The translations under genes were made by a program, and so were the position numbers. A stretch of 20,663 nt of DNA, from positions 1-20,663 of the forward strand of contig NZ_GG700736.1 of the NCBI RefSeq assembly GCF_000160835.1. Reading direction: 5' to 3'. The notes under the pieces were generated by a model, which did not search any database, was not told where the DNA came from, and worked only from the letters and a program-made list of their open reading frames with translations. Source of the DNA: Limosilactobacillus antri DSM 16041 (GTDB lineage Bacteria > Bacillota > Bacilli > Lactobacillales > Lactobacillaceae). Below, piece after piece: positions 2,317-14,751 of the stretch (within the stretch, counting starts at the first letter, position 1; the number at the start of each line of letters is the position of its first letter).

Positions 2317-2595
2317 ATGCCTAATCAATATGAAAAATTAGTTAAACAACAAGCACGTTTAAAGCAAAAAATTGAACGAGAAAATTTTAAATTACGGCAA
2401 TCTAAATACTATGAAAACCGCCAAGCACGCAAAGCCCGTTCTCGCCGATTAATTCAAAAAGGGGCTTTGCTCGAAAAATACTTTCAAGCTGATAACCTCT
2501 CGGTCGAACAAACCGAAGAACTTTTAAAAATATTTGCTAATTACATTAATGCGCATAAACCGAACAAATTCAAAAACGACCAGCCTAGTAACTAG
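2317..2595 (+). CDS. TraD-like mobilization accessory protein
   Basis: A 92-residue basic protein. An N-terminal helical, coiled-coil-like part (YEKLVKQQARLKQKIEREN) is followed by RKARSRRLIQKGALLEKYF at about residues 38-56. That resembles the conserved RKxRTRRLIxxGALLE signature of the small TraD/MobC-type proteins of MobQ systems. It sits directly behind the TraC-like gene under the same promoter. GGGGAAATTCT before the ATG gives a modest ribosome binding site. The stop codon lies inside a shared bidirectional terminator and the gene overlaps the 3' end of the convergent zeta-like gene by 11 bp. It probably helps the relaxase at oriT. Confidence 0.72.
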   Translation: MPNQYEKLVKQQARLKQKIERENFKLRQSKYYENRQARKARSRRLIQKGALLEKYFQADNLSVEQTEELLKIFANYINAHKPNKFKNDQPSN

Positions 2596-2608
2596 GCCGA
2601 TCGTTTTT
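2572..2608. terminator. Bidirectional terminator shared by convergent genes
   Basis: AAAAACGA at 2572-2579 pairs with TCGTTTTT at 2601-2608, and GCCTAG at 2583-2588 pairs with CTAGGC at 2592-2597. The hairpin carries A and T tracts on both sides, so it can stop both strands. The stop codons of both flanking genes (TAG at 2593-2595 plus, TAG at 2587-2585 minus) lie symmetrically in the inner stem. Confidence 0.85.
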
Positions 2609-3265
2609 ATTTTCTGGATCATTTTTAGGCTTTACTTCTGGGTTTTGATCTGCAAAATTTTGTAACTGCTTTTGCACCTTTTCTGGATAAGTAATATTTT
2701 GGTTTATCCAAGGAAAATGCCTCAAATCGTTCTTAAAAACTTGTCCCTTATCTCTTGCATAAACAGGGGTAAACTTTTCGCTATTATCATAAATCATGAC
2801 CTTATCAGATTTAAAGGCCACTAATGGCAAATTATGTTTGGATTGCTGATAACGTTTCTTGATCGTTGCTACTGGAACACCGTGCCCACCTTTTTGTACC
2901 CGTTCGTTGACCCTTTGGATAGCTAAATTTTCATCTCGCAAAGCAACATATAATAAAGTCACTTCAAAGCCATTTTTGTGAGCTTTGTCAATCAAATTGA
3001 GTTGAGCTTTGCCTCTACCTGCTAGTGTTGTTTCTACGTGAATACTTTGCTGGTGATCTAAAGCATAGTGTAGTTGTTTGATTTCTTCTTTCATGGCTTT
3101 TAAGTTGTCACTATCTTTATGCCAATCGCCACCCATTTGTCTTAAAAGTTCATCAGCGTTAATCCGTTTTGTTTTGTCAAACAAGCTGGGAAATGTATCG
3201 TATAGCGTACTTTTCCCTGCTCCGTTAATACCAGCAACAATTATATATTGGGGTTTATCTATCAA
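2585..3265 (-). CDS. Zeta-toxin-like kinase of a toxin-antitoxin pair
   Basis: A 226-residue protein with a Walker A motif GINGAGKST at residues 12-20, typical of zeta toxins, which phosphorylate UDP-N-acetylglucosamine and block wall synthesis. Further family features are INADELLRQMGGDW (residues 36-49), HVETTLAGRG around residue 77, VALRDENLAIQRVNERVQKGGHGVP and RRYQQS-like text (KKRYQQSKHNLP). The C-terminal 30 residues are polar and low-complexity. The start codon is TTG at 3265, overlapping the stop of the upstream small gene (TTGA), which suggests translational coupling. Family membership is confident. Whether it is a true toxin or a related kinase is not settled, because the upstream gene does not obviously look like a classical epsilon antitoxin. 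Confidence 0.85.
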   Translation of the reverse strand: MIDKPQYIIVAGINGAGKSTLYDTFPSLFDKTKRINADELLRQMGGDWHKDSDNLKAMKEEIKQLHYALDHQQSIHVETTLAGRGKAQLNLIDKAHKNGFEVTLLYVALRDENLAIQRVNERVQKGGHGVPVATIKKRYQQSKHNLPLVAFKSDKVMIYDNSEKFTPVYARDKGQVFKNDLRHFPWINQNITYPEKVQKQLQNFADQNPEVKPKNDPENKNDRPSY

Positions 3266-6953: not shown

Positions 6954-7289
6954 TTAACGCTTCTTATGATAACGACCATGGAATAATTTTTTATGAGAAC
7001 CAATATTAACAGCAACGAGTACTAAATCTTGATTGTTGACTTTATAGATAACTACAATGTCAGTTGTTTCAGTTGGTTGCTGCCCTTTGGGAGTATCACG
7101 AAGATGAAATTCTCGATAGCCAGTATAGTTTCCTTCTAATTCGTGATCATGAAAATCATCGGGAAGTATGTCGCCATCGAGGAGAATAGAAATAGCGTCT
7201 TTTACTTCATCAATAATTGTTATATCAAGCTGTGCAAGATAAGCTAAGTTTCGTTCAAACGATTTTCGTGGTTTATATTGATATCTCAT
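6954..7289 (-). CDS. YafQ/RelE-superfamily mRNA interferase toxin
   Basis: A 111-residue basic protein. It opens with MRYQYKPRKSFERNLAYLAQ, has LPDDFHDHELEGNYTGYREFHL in the middle and ends with LVAVNIGSHKKLFHGRY. These are features of YafQ-type ribosome-dependent RNases: HxL, YREFH and the C-terminal H near SHxxLF. Its ATG overlaps the stop of the upstream antitoxin gene by 4 bases (ATGA at 7289-7286). It would stabilise the plasmid by killing or halting segregants. The family call is good; the cleavage specificity is not visible. Confidence 0.88.
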   Translation of the reverse strand: MRYQYKPRKSFERNLAYLAQLDITIIDEVKDAISILLDGDILPDDFHDHELEGNYTGYREFHLRDTPKGQQPTETTDIVVIYKVNNQDLVLVAVNIGSHKKLFHGRYHKKR

Positions 7290-7585
7290 TGGTTACTGTT
7301 ATCCTTTGGCTTAAAACTGTTCCAATAATCGTCAGTTGGTTCAACGATAGGATCATCAGGTAAGATGTGCATTTCGATTAACTTATCTCTGGCAATAGCA
7401 TAATCTAGTGAATCTTCTTTAGCATTAACAGCTTCAAGAAGGGTATTGAGTTGTTCTTGTGAGATAACAGCTGCTGCTCGTTGATTAGAACGTGCAATTA
7501 GTACTGTTTGGTTTTCATCATTGACTTTATCTAAGTAGTCTTTAATATGATTACGGAAATCACTTTGAGTAGTAGCAATTGGCAT
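7286..7585 (-). CDS. Phd/YefM-type antitoxin
   Basis: A 99-residue acidic protein. The N terminus, MPIATTQSDFRNHIKDYLDK, followed by TVLIARSNQRAAAVISQEQL, matches the Phd/YefM fold used for operator binding; the C-terminal half is acidic and likely wraps the toxin. It precedes and overlaps a YafQ-like toxin, a common mixed pairing. The ribosome binding site is AAAGGAG, eight bases before the ATG. A minus-strand TATAAT (7618-7613) and a GTAC-N8-GTAC dyad (7621-7636) lie just upstream, which suits autoregulation. Confidence 0.87.
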   Translation of the reverse strand: MPIATTQSDFRNHIKDYLDKVNDENQTVLIARSNQRAAAVISQEQLNTLLEAVNAKEDSLDYAIARDKLIEMHILPDDPIVEPTDDYWNSFKPKDNSNQ

Positions 7586-13474: not shown

Positions 13475-13659
13475 CAAAAACACCTGTCACACGCGACAGA
13501 AACTGATTTGTTTTGCTGAAATGTTAATGGACTTAATCAGTTTTTTTAGTTGCTTCTTAGAAAGTAGCAACAATACAAGTACGATGATGCTGATGTATAA
13601 ATCAAGTCAGTCGATTACTTATCCGAACCGGTGGGACATCTGAAAAGATGCCCTTTTTA
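13475..13659. pseudogene. Collapsed copy of the type I toxin-antitoxin-like element
   Basis: This stretch aligns with 14355-14694 end to end but lacks the middle. It has the CCTGTC/GACAG hairpin at 13483-13499, a minus-strand frame reading VLLLLSKKQLKKLIKSIN (the peptide core without a start codon), then the equivalent of the antitoxin RNA body and its terminator (GACATCTgaaaAGATGCC, T-run to 13658). The promoter block between the two short direct repeats of the intact copy is absent. It looks like a deletion by recombination between those repeats. It is also a direct repeat partner flanking tag. Confidence 0.7.
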
Positions 13660-13703: not shown

Positions 13704-14264
13704 ATGAAACGCTGCTTTCCGAAAAACGATGATGCTCCACTCCTTACGAAGTATCATGACCACGAATGGGGTAAGCTGAACCTCAACGAGAATTACTTAT
13801 ATGAGATGATGGTTCTAGAATCCTTTCAATCGGGACTTAGTTGGCAATTAGTCTTGGATAAGCGAGAAAATTTTCGACAAGCCTTTGCAGGCTTTAATGT
13901 GGAGCGGGTTGCAAAATTTACCAGTAATCAACGTAAGCAATTACTGAAAAACCGAGGAATCATTCGTAATCAGCGAAAAATTGATGCCGCCATTAATAAT
14001 GCCCGTGTAATGACTAAAATGCACCGTGAAGGGCACCAATTGTGTACAGTACTAACAACCTTAATTCCACAGCCAATCATTAACCACCCTCAACAGTTTA
14101 CTGACATACCAACCCAAAATAGACTATCTCGAAACCTAGCAAAAGAGTTTAAAGAAATAGGTCTTCAATTTATGGGGCCAGTAACAATCTACTCCTTTCT
14201 TGAAGCGGTAGGCCTAATTAACGATCATATCGAAGACTGTCCTTTTAAGTACACTACTACGTAA
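13704..14264 (+). CDS. tag: DNA-3-methyladenine glycosylase I
   Basis: A 186-residue base-excision enzyme that removes 3-methyladenine from alkylated DNA. The zinc ligands of the family are all seen: Cys4 (MKRC), His18 in YHDHEWG, and His175/Cys179 in NDHIEDC. Glu39 in VLESFQSGLSW matches the catalytic-pocket Glu38 of E. coli Tag. LLKNRGIIRNQRKIDAAINN follows the helix-hairpin-helix region. The length is normal. AGGAGG lies seven bases before the ATG. It stands alone between two copies of a small TA-like element, not in an operon, so it may have been carried with them. Confidence 0.92.
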   Translation: MKRCFPKNDDAPLLTKYHDHEWGKLNLNENYLYEMMVLESFQSGLSWQLVLDKRENFRQAFAGFNVERVAKFTSNQRKQLLKNRGIIRNQRKIDAAINNARVMTKMHREGHQLCTVLTTLIPQPIINHPQQFTDIPTQNRLSRNLAKEFKEIGLQFMGPVTIYSFLEAVGLINDHIEDCPFKYTTT

Positions 14265-14354: not shown

Positions 14355-14382
14355 AAAAACGTCTGCCGCACGCGACAGACGC
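14355..14382 (-). terminator. Terminator of the small peptide mRNA
   Basis: On the minus strand CGTCTG pairs with CAGACG (14381-14376 with 14365-14360), with inner CG/CG pairs, and is followed by TTTTTT (14359-14354). It lies 22 bases after the peptide stop codon. Confidence 0.85.
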
Positions 14383-14402
14383 TGGTTTATTCTACTGAAA
14401 TG

Positions 14403-14507
14403 CTAAAGCATGTACTTTAACAGCTCAATCATGAACTTAATCAGTTTTTTCAGTTGCTTCTTACTGAAAAAAGGCAACAATACAAAGATGAAGATACAAT
14501 GAGTCAC
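14403..14507 (-). CDS. 34-residue hydrophobic/cationic peptide, candidate type I toxin
   Basis: The ORF starts at GTG (14507-14505) and ends at TAG (14405-14403). The N-terminal half is hydrophobic (THCIFIFVLLPFF) and is followed by a cationic amphipathic helix (SKKQLKKLIKFMIELLKYML). That fits small membrane-acting toxins. GGAGG (14521-14517) lies nine bases before the GTG, in a hairpin. The mRNA has a promoter, a structured leader and a terminator. Codons 5-9 are complementary to the start of the opposite small RNA. It does not resemble Fst, TxpA/BsrG or the holin-like toxins I know. Expression and toxicity are inferred; the layout makes a chance ORF unlikely. Confidence 0.68.
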   Translation of the reverse strand: MTHCIFIFVLLPFFSKKQLKKLIKFMIELLKYML

Positions 14508-14527
14508 TGGGAAGAACCTCCTTCCCA
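14508..14527 (-). promoter_or_regulatory. Hairpin holding the Shine-Dalgarno of the small peptide
   Basis: TGGGAAG (14527-14521) and CTTCCCA (14514-14508) form a perfect 7-bp stem with GAGGTT in the loop, directly before the GTG. It would limit ribosome access to GGAGG. The outer leader also folds: GAATGC/GCATTC near 14557-14540, enclosed by CACAC/GTGTG. Confidence 0.75.
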
Positions 14528-14572
14528 CACACAAATTGAATGCTTGATGGGGGCATTCTGGTGTGCTTTCCT

Positions 14573-14602
14573 ATTGTATCATAGAAAGTTTTCAGCTATA
14601 AT
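14573..14602. promoter_or_regulatory. Overlapping divergent promoters of the peptide mRNA and the small RNA
   Basis: Plus strand: TTGTAT (14574-14579), 17-bp spacer, TATAAT (14597-14602). Minus strand: TTATAG (14601-14596), 17-bp spacer, TACAAT (14578-14573). Each -35 lies on the other promoter's -10, so polymerase can serve only one side at a time. The plus promoter is stronger, as expected for an antitoxin RNA. Confidence 0.72.
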
Positions 14603-14608
14603 ATTGTT

Positions 14609-14694
14609 ACAAAGATGAAGATGCTGGTGTGTAAATTGGATCAGCTGATTACTTATCCGAGCCGGCGGGGCATCTGAAAAGATGCTCTTTTTTT
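14609..14694 (+). ncRNA. Candidate antitoxin RNA (about 86 nt)
   Basis: Starts about seven bases after TATAAT and ends at a strong terminator (GGGCATCT 14668-14675 with AGATGCTC 14680-14687, GAAA-type loop, seven Ts). Its first 14 bases lie in a 15-nt sequence (14608-14622) that is repeated exactly at 14481-14495, inside the peptide gene on the opposite strand. The RNA can therefore pair with codons 5-9 of the peptide mRNA. The next bases, CTGGTGTG (14624-14631), are repeated at 14558-14565 and so match the extreme 5' end of the peptide mRNA. Two trans-pairing segments recall the DRa/DRb scheme of Fst loci, but the genes here are divergent. Confidence 0.7.
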
Positions 14695-14751
14695 GTACCT
14701 AAATTTTCTTTTATTGGGTCTATTTGTAATAATGGAACCTTAAGAATGCCG

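Follow-up and report, generated by a model that had tools for sequence, protein, structure and literature searches.

Limosilactobacillus antri DSM 16041 carries, in a stretch of 20,663 nucleotides (contig NZ_GG700736.1, hereafter the window), a short frame for a hydrophobic and cationic peptide on the minus strand and, back to back with it, a candidate small RNA (sRNA) gene on the plus strand. The question is whether these two elements form a type I toxin-antitoxin pair, in which an antisense RNA base-pairs with the toxin mRNA, and how such a pair is related to the systems already named. The comparisons described below favor a type I pair of an unnamed family, a reading to which we assign a probability of about 85%.

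Two divergent genes in the window

The features of the locus, including an older copy upstream of it, are as follows.

About 13480-13658, plus strand: fossil copy, in which the C-terminal part of the peptide is fused at the repeat DRa to the sRNA body and both promoters and the start region are absent; 63.6 bits
14355-14567, minus strand: putative toxin mRNA of about 213 nt, with ends inferred from the -10 element and the terminator
14358-14383, minus strand: intrinsic terminator of the toxin mRNA, from the terminator scan
14403-14507, minus strand: ORF of the putative toxin peptide, 34 codons, GTG start, stop included; 43 of 44 related pairs retain both the Shine-Dalgarno sequence (SD) and the ORF
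14481-14495: copy of DRa within codons 5-9 of the ORF
14508-14527, minus strand: hairpin of 7 bp that holds the SD, TGGGAAG-GAGGTT-CTTCCCA
14538-14558, minus strand: leader hairpin whose loop could pair with the P2 loop of the sRNA (here TGAT, 4 nt only)
14558-14565: copy of the repeat DRb, at the inferred 5' end of the mRNA
14573-14578, minus strand: -10 element TACAAT of the toxin promoter
14597-14602, plus strand: -10 element TATAAT of the sRNA promoter
14608-14692, plus strand: antisense sRNA of about 84-86 nt; covariance-model match of 95.6 bits, to a model built from 17 sequences of which this is one
14608-14622, plus strand: copy of DRa, forming the unpaired 5' tail of the sRNA
14624-14631, plus strand: copy of DRb in the sRNA
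14623-14666, plus strand: sRNA stem P1 (14623-14627 with 14662-14666) around P2 (14638-14658)
14667-14694, plus strand: intrinsic terminator of the sRNA (14667-14688 in the scan)

The peptide has the sequence (V/M)THCIFIFVLLPFFSKKQLKKLIKFMIELLKYML. It is shorter than 60 residues and is first hydrophobic and then cationic, as type I toxins are. A single-sequence structure prediction (pLDDT 85.5) places helices at residues 2-13 and 16-33 with a break after residue 13, and this predicted two-helix form is consistent with membrane action rather than proof of it. The two genes are divergent and end at two separate terminators. The toxin -10 lies at 14578-14573 and the sRNA -10 at 14597-14602, so each -10 falls approximately where the -35 of the opposite promoter would be. 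Both -35 hexamers are weak, and neither promoter was listed by a consensus promoter scan. The intrinsic terminator scan returned four terminators in 1.5 kb against 1.2 expected in shuffles, and both terminators of the locus are among them.

Two exact repeats connect the genes. DRa is TACAAAGATGAAGAT, 15 nt long, and the sRNA begins with it; DRb is CTGGTGTG, 8 nt long, and follows one base after DRa in the sRNA. The 15-nt repeat is beyond chance, the maximum in 5000 dinucleotide shuffles being 12 nt. Duplex prediction pairs 24 sRNA bases with the mRNA at a gain of -22.5 kcal/mol; in the predicted complex, sRNA bases 1-16 lie on the codons and bases 17-24 on the mRNA 5' end, while the leader hairpin and the SD hairpin sit between both helices.

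Much of this arrangement had been proposed in a first-pass annotation made from the letters of the sequence. The 34-codon GTG frame, the SD inside a perfect 7-bp hairpin before the GTG, the terminators on both strands, the putative plus-strand RNA of about 86 nt, the repeats of 15 and 8 bases in codons 5-9 and at the mRNA 5' end, and the opposed, overlapping promoters, seen here as interlocked -10 elements, were all recovered. Its description of a consensus promoter holds for the -10 elements and fails for the -35 hexamers. The duplex prediction that it suggested is the one given above.

Pairings that change together in related loci

The search with a covariance model of the sRNA took in the window and 93 of 122 loci, the rest being repeated places, short terminator matches or partial matches. 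It gave 110 matches, from which L034 (a duplicate of L073) and the three matches with the lowest scores were removed, leaving 106, of which 104 are distinct. Divergent pairs account for 44 of these 104 sRNA sites, and remnants with abutting peptide and sRNA for 19; another 18 are orphans, which have a -10 but lack an upstream peptide, 8 more have both a -10 and a peptide, and 15 fall into none of these groups. The 44 pairs were reached from 47 sites with two -10 elements by dropping three without the DRa repeat (L117 twice and L068), a choice that favors the toxin-antitoxin reading; the test of cognate tails includes these three.

The SD and the ORF are present in 43 of the 44 pairs, and the ORF is broken in L109. 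Forty-one distinct peptides of 24-44 residues show a hydrophobic N-terminal stretch followed by a cationic helix, with a net charge (K+R-D-E) of +3 to +9 and a consensus of roughly M-x-H-W-(hydrophobic)-V-P-x-K-H-V-K-x-L-I-K. The SD lies within or beside a hairpin loop in 43/44 pairs, and in each of the 43 pairs that have an ORF DRa lies between codons 3.7 and 11.3. The two -10 elements are spaced by 23-24 bp in 41/44 pairs and are of the extended type (TG) in 35/44 sRNA promoters and 43/44 mRNA promoters. Because the set was picked partly for two -10 elements, their presence reflects selection of the loci, whereas their spacing does not.

The sRNA tails vary between loci and yet match their own mRNA. 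With G.U allowed, all 15 DRa positions pair with the cognate partner in 29 of 41 distinct tails, against a non-cognate mean of 10.96, and in 30 of the 41 no other locus's region pairs equally well. Shuffled partners reached the observed mean in 0/2000 trials for DRa and in 0/2000 for DRb. Duplex energy, calculated for 43 of the 44 pairs (L113 was left out), gave 0/5000 for shuffled partners, and the own partner was the most stable one in 35/43. Related loci are non-independent samples, and only a contrast between nearest relatives tries to allow for kinship. This contrast used 39 of the 44 pairs (five with a shifted or poor DRa were left out), 38 of which entered 19 disjoint pairs of nearest relatives. 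Their DRa columns had changed on both sides in 90 cases, on the sRNA side only in 6, on the mRNA side only in 10 and on neither in 179. In addition, the 30 mismatches between the DNA copies in 34 loci with distinct tails comprise 22 that are G.U-compatible, one transition of the opposite sense and seven transversions, a bias suggesting that the pairing occurs between RNAs. In predicted folds, the sRNA tail has an unpaired probability of 0.90 compared with 0.36 for the remainder, and it is the higher in 44/44 pairs; the DRa site of the mRNA is more open than its surroundings in 34/44 only (0.50 vs 0.39).

The sRNA also carries an imprint of the codons. Positions 2, 5, 8, 11 and 14 are A in 32-34 of the 34 distinct tails, and the intervening positions vary. 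Each of these A's is complementary to a T in the second position of a hydrophobic codon. The sRNA, itself noncoding, thus preserves the peptide's reading frame, an argument for translation of the ORF that does not depend on ORF length.

A third pairing, between the apical loop of P2 in the sRNA and the leader hairpin of the mRNA, was supported in one of two tests. The first, which allowed G.U and used loose windows, fell short of significance (590/2000 shuffles reached the observed value). The second, devised after the outcome of the looser test had been seen, used fold-defined loops in 42 of the 44 pairs and gave a mean Watson-Crick stretch of 5.10 nt compared with 3.67 (sd 0.17) for shuffled partners, with 0/5000 shuffles reaching the observed mean. 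The wrong leader hairpin was folded in L051 and L073, as judged by reading, and their low scores were retained. The stretch is 5-7 nt long in 24/42 pairs and only 2-4 nt in 18/42, the window included. Loop stretches change in step between loci (TGATTA, TGGTTA, CGTTAC, TCGTTAC, TAGCTA and TTCCTA); in one large class both loops contain the palindrome AGCT, which is barely informative.

The existence of two genes, the co-evolution of their pairings and the conservation of the frame are supported by these comparisons. The base-pairing of antisense RNA and toxin mRNA that defines type I systems appears here in silico, as co-evolving complementarity. Cognate pairing, the G.U bias, co-change and the imprint lend support to the earlier proposal of a type I-like divergent pair with two-site antisense pairing. 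A frame not conserved in homologous loci had been named as grounds against that proposal, and the frame is kept in 43/44 pairs. The earlier observation is thus confirmed; the loop-loop pairing, the fossil copy and the wide family lie beyond what it saw.

Distribution, remnants and orphan RNAs

Searches of Lactobacillaceae genomes with the peptide and the locus, also suggested by the first-pass annotation, uncovered the family. The sRNA model matched 39 of 50 genomes of the genus, 22 of the 50 with two or more copies and two with seven matches each. It matched 25 of 396 genomes of the bacterial family, in 4 of 40 genera, and one of 299 genomes in a class sample, which was G001 itself. A whole-genome DNA search found 24 of the 396 genomes, several of these matches being terminator pieces only. 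By blastn, similar DNA occurs in 17 of 72,556 plasmid records, all from lactobacilli, and no annotated gene lies beneath any of the 17 matches. A pattern scan of named contigs found 12 stretches, nine of them from Limosilactobacillus (agrestis, balticus, caviae, rudii, avistercoris, secaliphilus and gastricus); the sRNA pattern also occurs in 11 stretches of IMG/VR contigs, and the locus DNA had no match in phage records. Copies of the family occur both on plasmids and on contigs of about 2 Mb, presumably chromosomes. A protein search with 16 family members returned 32 proteins, unnamed or hypothetical, several of them from L. reuteri. L185 and L186, from another genus of the bacterial family, have the same DRa layout and loop matches of about 4 nt when judged by eye, where the script gave no resolution. 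In L065 (1340-1590), also from another genus, the peptide frame is seemingly shortened, as judged by eye, and a short DRa repeat is retained. An order sample gave one weak peptide-profile match beyond the bacterial family (L195, G894:C13:58067-58123, E 7.5e-4).

In the 19 remnants, the C-terminal part of the peptide continues into the sRNA body, mostly at DRa by reading, and L112 looks different. Recombination between the DRa copies would be expected to produce such remnants, with loss of the start codon, the SD and both promoters. The fossil of the window lies just upstream of a gene at 13704, the relatives of which are annotated as DNA-3-methyladenine glycosylase I, and L005, L009 and L011 have a similar fossil in the same position. 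Tandem runs of two or three sRNA units occur in L010 (3053-3382), L084 (1124-1952) and L085 (1501-1941), and L010 has a single toxin gene. An imperfect palindrome, TAGGGTCTATTT-5 nt-AAATAACCCCTA, follows shortly past the sRNA terminator in plasmid copies (L001 3390, L003 3358, L006 3224, L078 1607) and is degenerate in the window (14716-14738). The form with a 5-bp spacer fits some plasmid copies; a guessed form with a 6-bp spacer had no exact match after the sRNA and one distinct site with three mismatches. The palindrome is near integrase genes in L003 and L006, and recombination at this site may be what mobilizes the unit. The window also holds an ORF (2585-3265) that we take to resemble a zeta-type toxin kinase and, at 6954-7585, what is presumably a small two-gene type II toxin-antitoxin pair, so the plasmid-like window may carry several stability modules.

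A search that began from the peptide examined the association from the other side. Sixty-one places in 37 of the 50 genus genomes matched the peptide profile; 46 of them are 20-250 nt from a model-detected sRNA, nine abut one as fused remnants and six are without one at the model's cut-off. All six of the latter carry a diverged sRNA-like unit in the right position, in which the exact DRa repeat is 9-15 nt long and the loop repeat 6-7 nt (TTTCTA, TTCCTAA, GTCAATC, GTCGTGA); among these, L169 was judged by eye, and L172 and L177 are near-identical. Among the 46 ORFs close to an sRNA, some contain stops or lack an SD. One of them, G411:C1:358139, looks degraded, is without an SD and lies beside the sRNA of another pair. 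Within the 50 genus genomes, the toxin ORF is thus not kept without an antitoxin gene, which is an expectation for type I systems rather than part of their strict definition. The 18 orphan sRNAs retain the codon imprint, with A at 0.83-0.94 of the five codon positions. Four of the 18 orphan tails, three of them identical, pair at 15/15 positions with the toxin mRNA of another genome. For the orphans L049, L071, L063, L064, L105 and L094 (site 633-), 13-15 of the 15 tail positions match toxin mRNAs from different loci. Some orphans could therefore guard against incoming toxins.

These data bear on a different reading, in which the peptide is a secreted or surface-active product (bacteriocin-like or signaling) and no self-toxin, with the antisense RNA tuning its production. 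Short, cationic and amphipathic peptides with a net charge of +3 to +9 would suit such a role, and L001 adjoins a peptide export ABC transporter annotated with bacteriocin transport. However, neighboring genes vary among L001-L015, and no export or immunity gene recurs. No intact peptide ORF (E 0.01, 50 genomes) was found without a nearby or diverged sRNA, fused or degraded copies aside, while sRNAs do occur without the peptide; this asymmetry is the one expected of toxin and antitoxin. A secreted product is therefore unlikely, and the peptide is more probably the toxin.

Relation to known type I systems and proposed mechanism

Database searches placed the locus in no named family. Rfam gave no family at gathering score on the window, and two chance-level matches on the locus at a loose threshold. 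The window peptide was without a match in Pfam and NCBIfam, four peptides of the family had none in Pfam, NCBIfam and PADLOC, and solved structures searched with the peptide profile gave none either. PHROGs gave one weak match (E 0.0096), of the L010 peptide to a family of unknown function. No publication on the family was found in the open-licence literature, subscription papers being outside it, and the passages available from PMC3861533 and PMC10832526 hold nothing on it. The locus is, within this scope, apparently undescribed, as the first reading had said.

The nearest comparison is with Fst of the par locus (RNA I and RNA II of pAD1) and with Lpt of Lacticaseibacillus rhamnosus, which, in the available passages of PMC7472228 and PMC5608710, are likewise plasmid-borne and have a short hydrophobic peptide and direct repeats near the translation start through which the two RNAs pair. 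In Fst, the SD is held in a stem-loop and first contact is by kissing (passages of PMC7472228). As described there, the RNAs of Fst and Lpt are convergent, and those of Fst share one bidirectional terminator, whereas the window family is divergent with two terminators. Its loop-loop contact would form between dedicated hairpins and not at the terminator as in Fst, and, unlike in Fst and Lpt, one repeat lies inside the coding sequence and the other at the mRNA 5' end. No shared family of the Fst peptide and the family's peptides was detected; 41 members gave only five unrelated Pfam families, at E 0.08-0.32, and no PxxxG was seen on reading them.

The tisB/istR-1, shoB/ohsC, zorO/orzO and dinQ/agrB systems are divergent likewise, with an sRNA that pairs at a distance (PMC4147584, in part). 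The shoB, zor and dinQ antitoxins pair with a long 5' UTR, outside the initiation site and the coding sequence, according to the same passages. Pairing of the window family is not confined to the 5' UTR; its sRNA is predicted to pair with codons 5-9 and the very 5' end, and its promoters are interlocked, unlike in shoB, zor and dinQ. Among ibs/sib, symE/symR and ralR/ralA, Sib and SymR are encoded opposite the toxin, whereas the sRNA gene of the window lies beside it and carries a repeat. By the tests made on sequence, the family is a member of neither Fst/par nor the divergent systems of E. coli. It is best read as a new family that appears to join Fst-like regulation to a divergent layout, with a peptide seemingly unrelated to Fst.

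Descent from a convergent par locus by rearrangement would explain the shared logic of DRa and DRb repeats, SD-sequestering stem-loop and loop-loop first contact (PMC7472228, in part), but the divergent promoters, the two separate terminators, the lack of a relevant Pfam family among the 41 peptides and of a PxxxG motif on reading make a rearranged Fst/par member quite improbable.

If the locus is a type I toxin-antitoxin pair, its operation can be proposed as follows. The minus strand would give an mRNA for a 34-residue peptide with a hydrophobic helix, a break near a proline and a cationic amphipathic helix, which probably acts on the membrane. The plus strand would give the sRNA from a promoter interlocked with that of the toxin. 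Sequestration of the SD in a hairpin probably delays translation of newly made mRNA. The single-stranded 15-nt tail of the sRNA would find the mRNA by pairing with codons 5-9, possibly assisted in many relatives by contact between the sRNA loop and that of the leader hairpin. Pairing would then extend to the 5' end of the mRNA and leave the SD and start codon enclosed by two helices. Translation would be blocked, and the duplex would probably be cut by RNase III. The edge of the ribosome footprint is approximately at codon 4-6, where DRa starts, so a direct block of initiation is uncertain. After plasmid loss, the toxin mRNA would be left without fresh antitoxin, and post-segregational killing may be the role on plasmids.

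The opposite effect, in which the sRNA activates by opening the leader and admitting the ribosome, is very improbable. The mRNA 5' end is predicted to pair in cis just before the SD hairpin, and the sRNA would displace that pairing, but in the predicted complex the SD hairpin stays closed and codons 5-9 are covered by a duplex. Chance repeats without function would be conceivable for a single window, and the probability of this is negligible given a repeat longer than any in the shuffles and a layout and pairing that recur in 44 pairs.

In the available passages of PMC7472228 and PMC4147584, E. coli is the source of the divergent type I systems named, and the Gram-positive systems of Fst type are convergent; the present family joins divergent genes to Fst-like multi-site pairing. 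The codon imprint could help to find such pairs where peptide and RNA both lack annotation. The copies differ in their pairing codes and thereby offer dozens of natural toxin-antitoxin codes for specificity, cross-talk and orphan antitoxins. The family is, furthermore, a possible plasmid-stability part for lactobacilli. Tentatively, it may be a mobile and self-diversifying type I family whose antitoxin RNA follows the codon rhythm of the toxin, and whose free-standing sRNAs on chromosomes and plasmids could serve as anti-addiction guards against the toxins of other elements.
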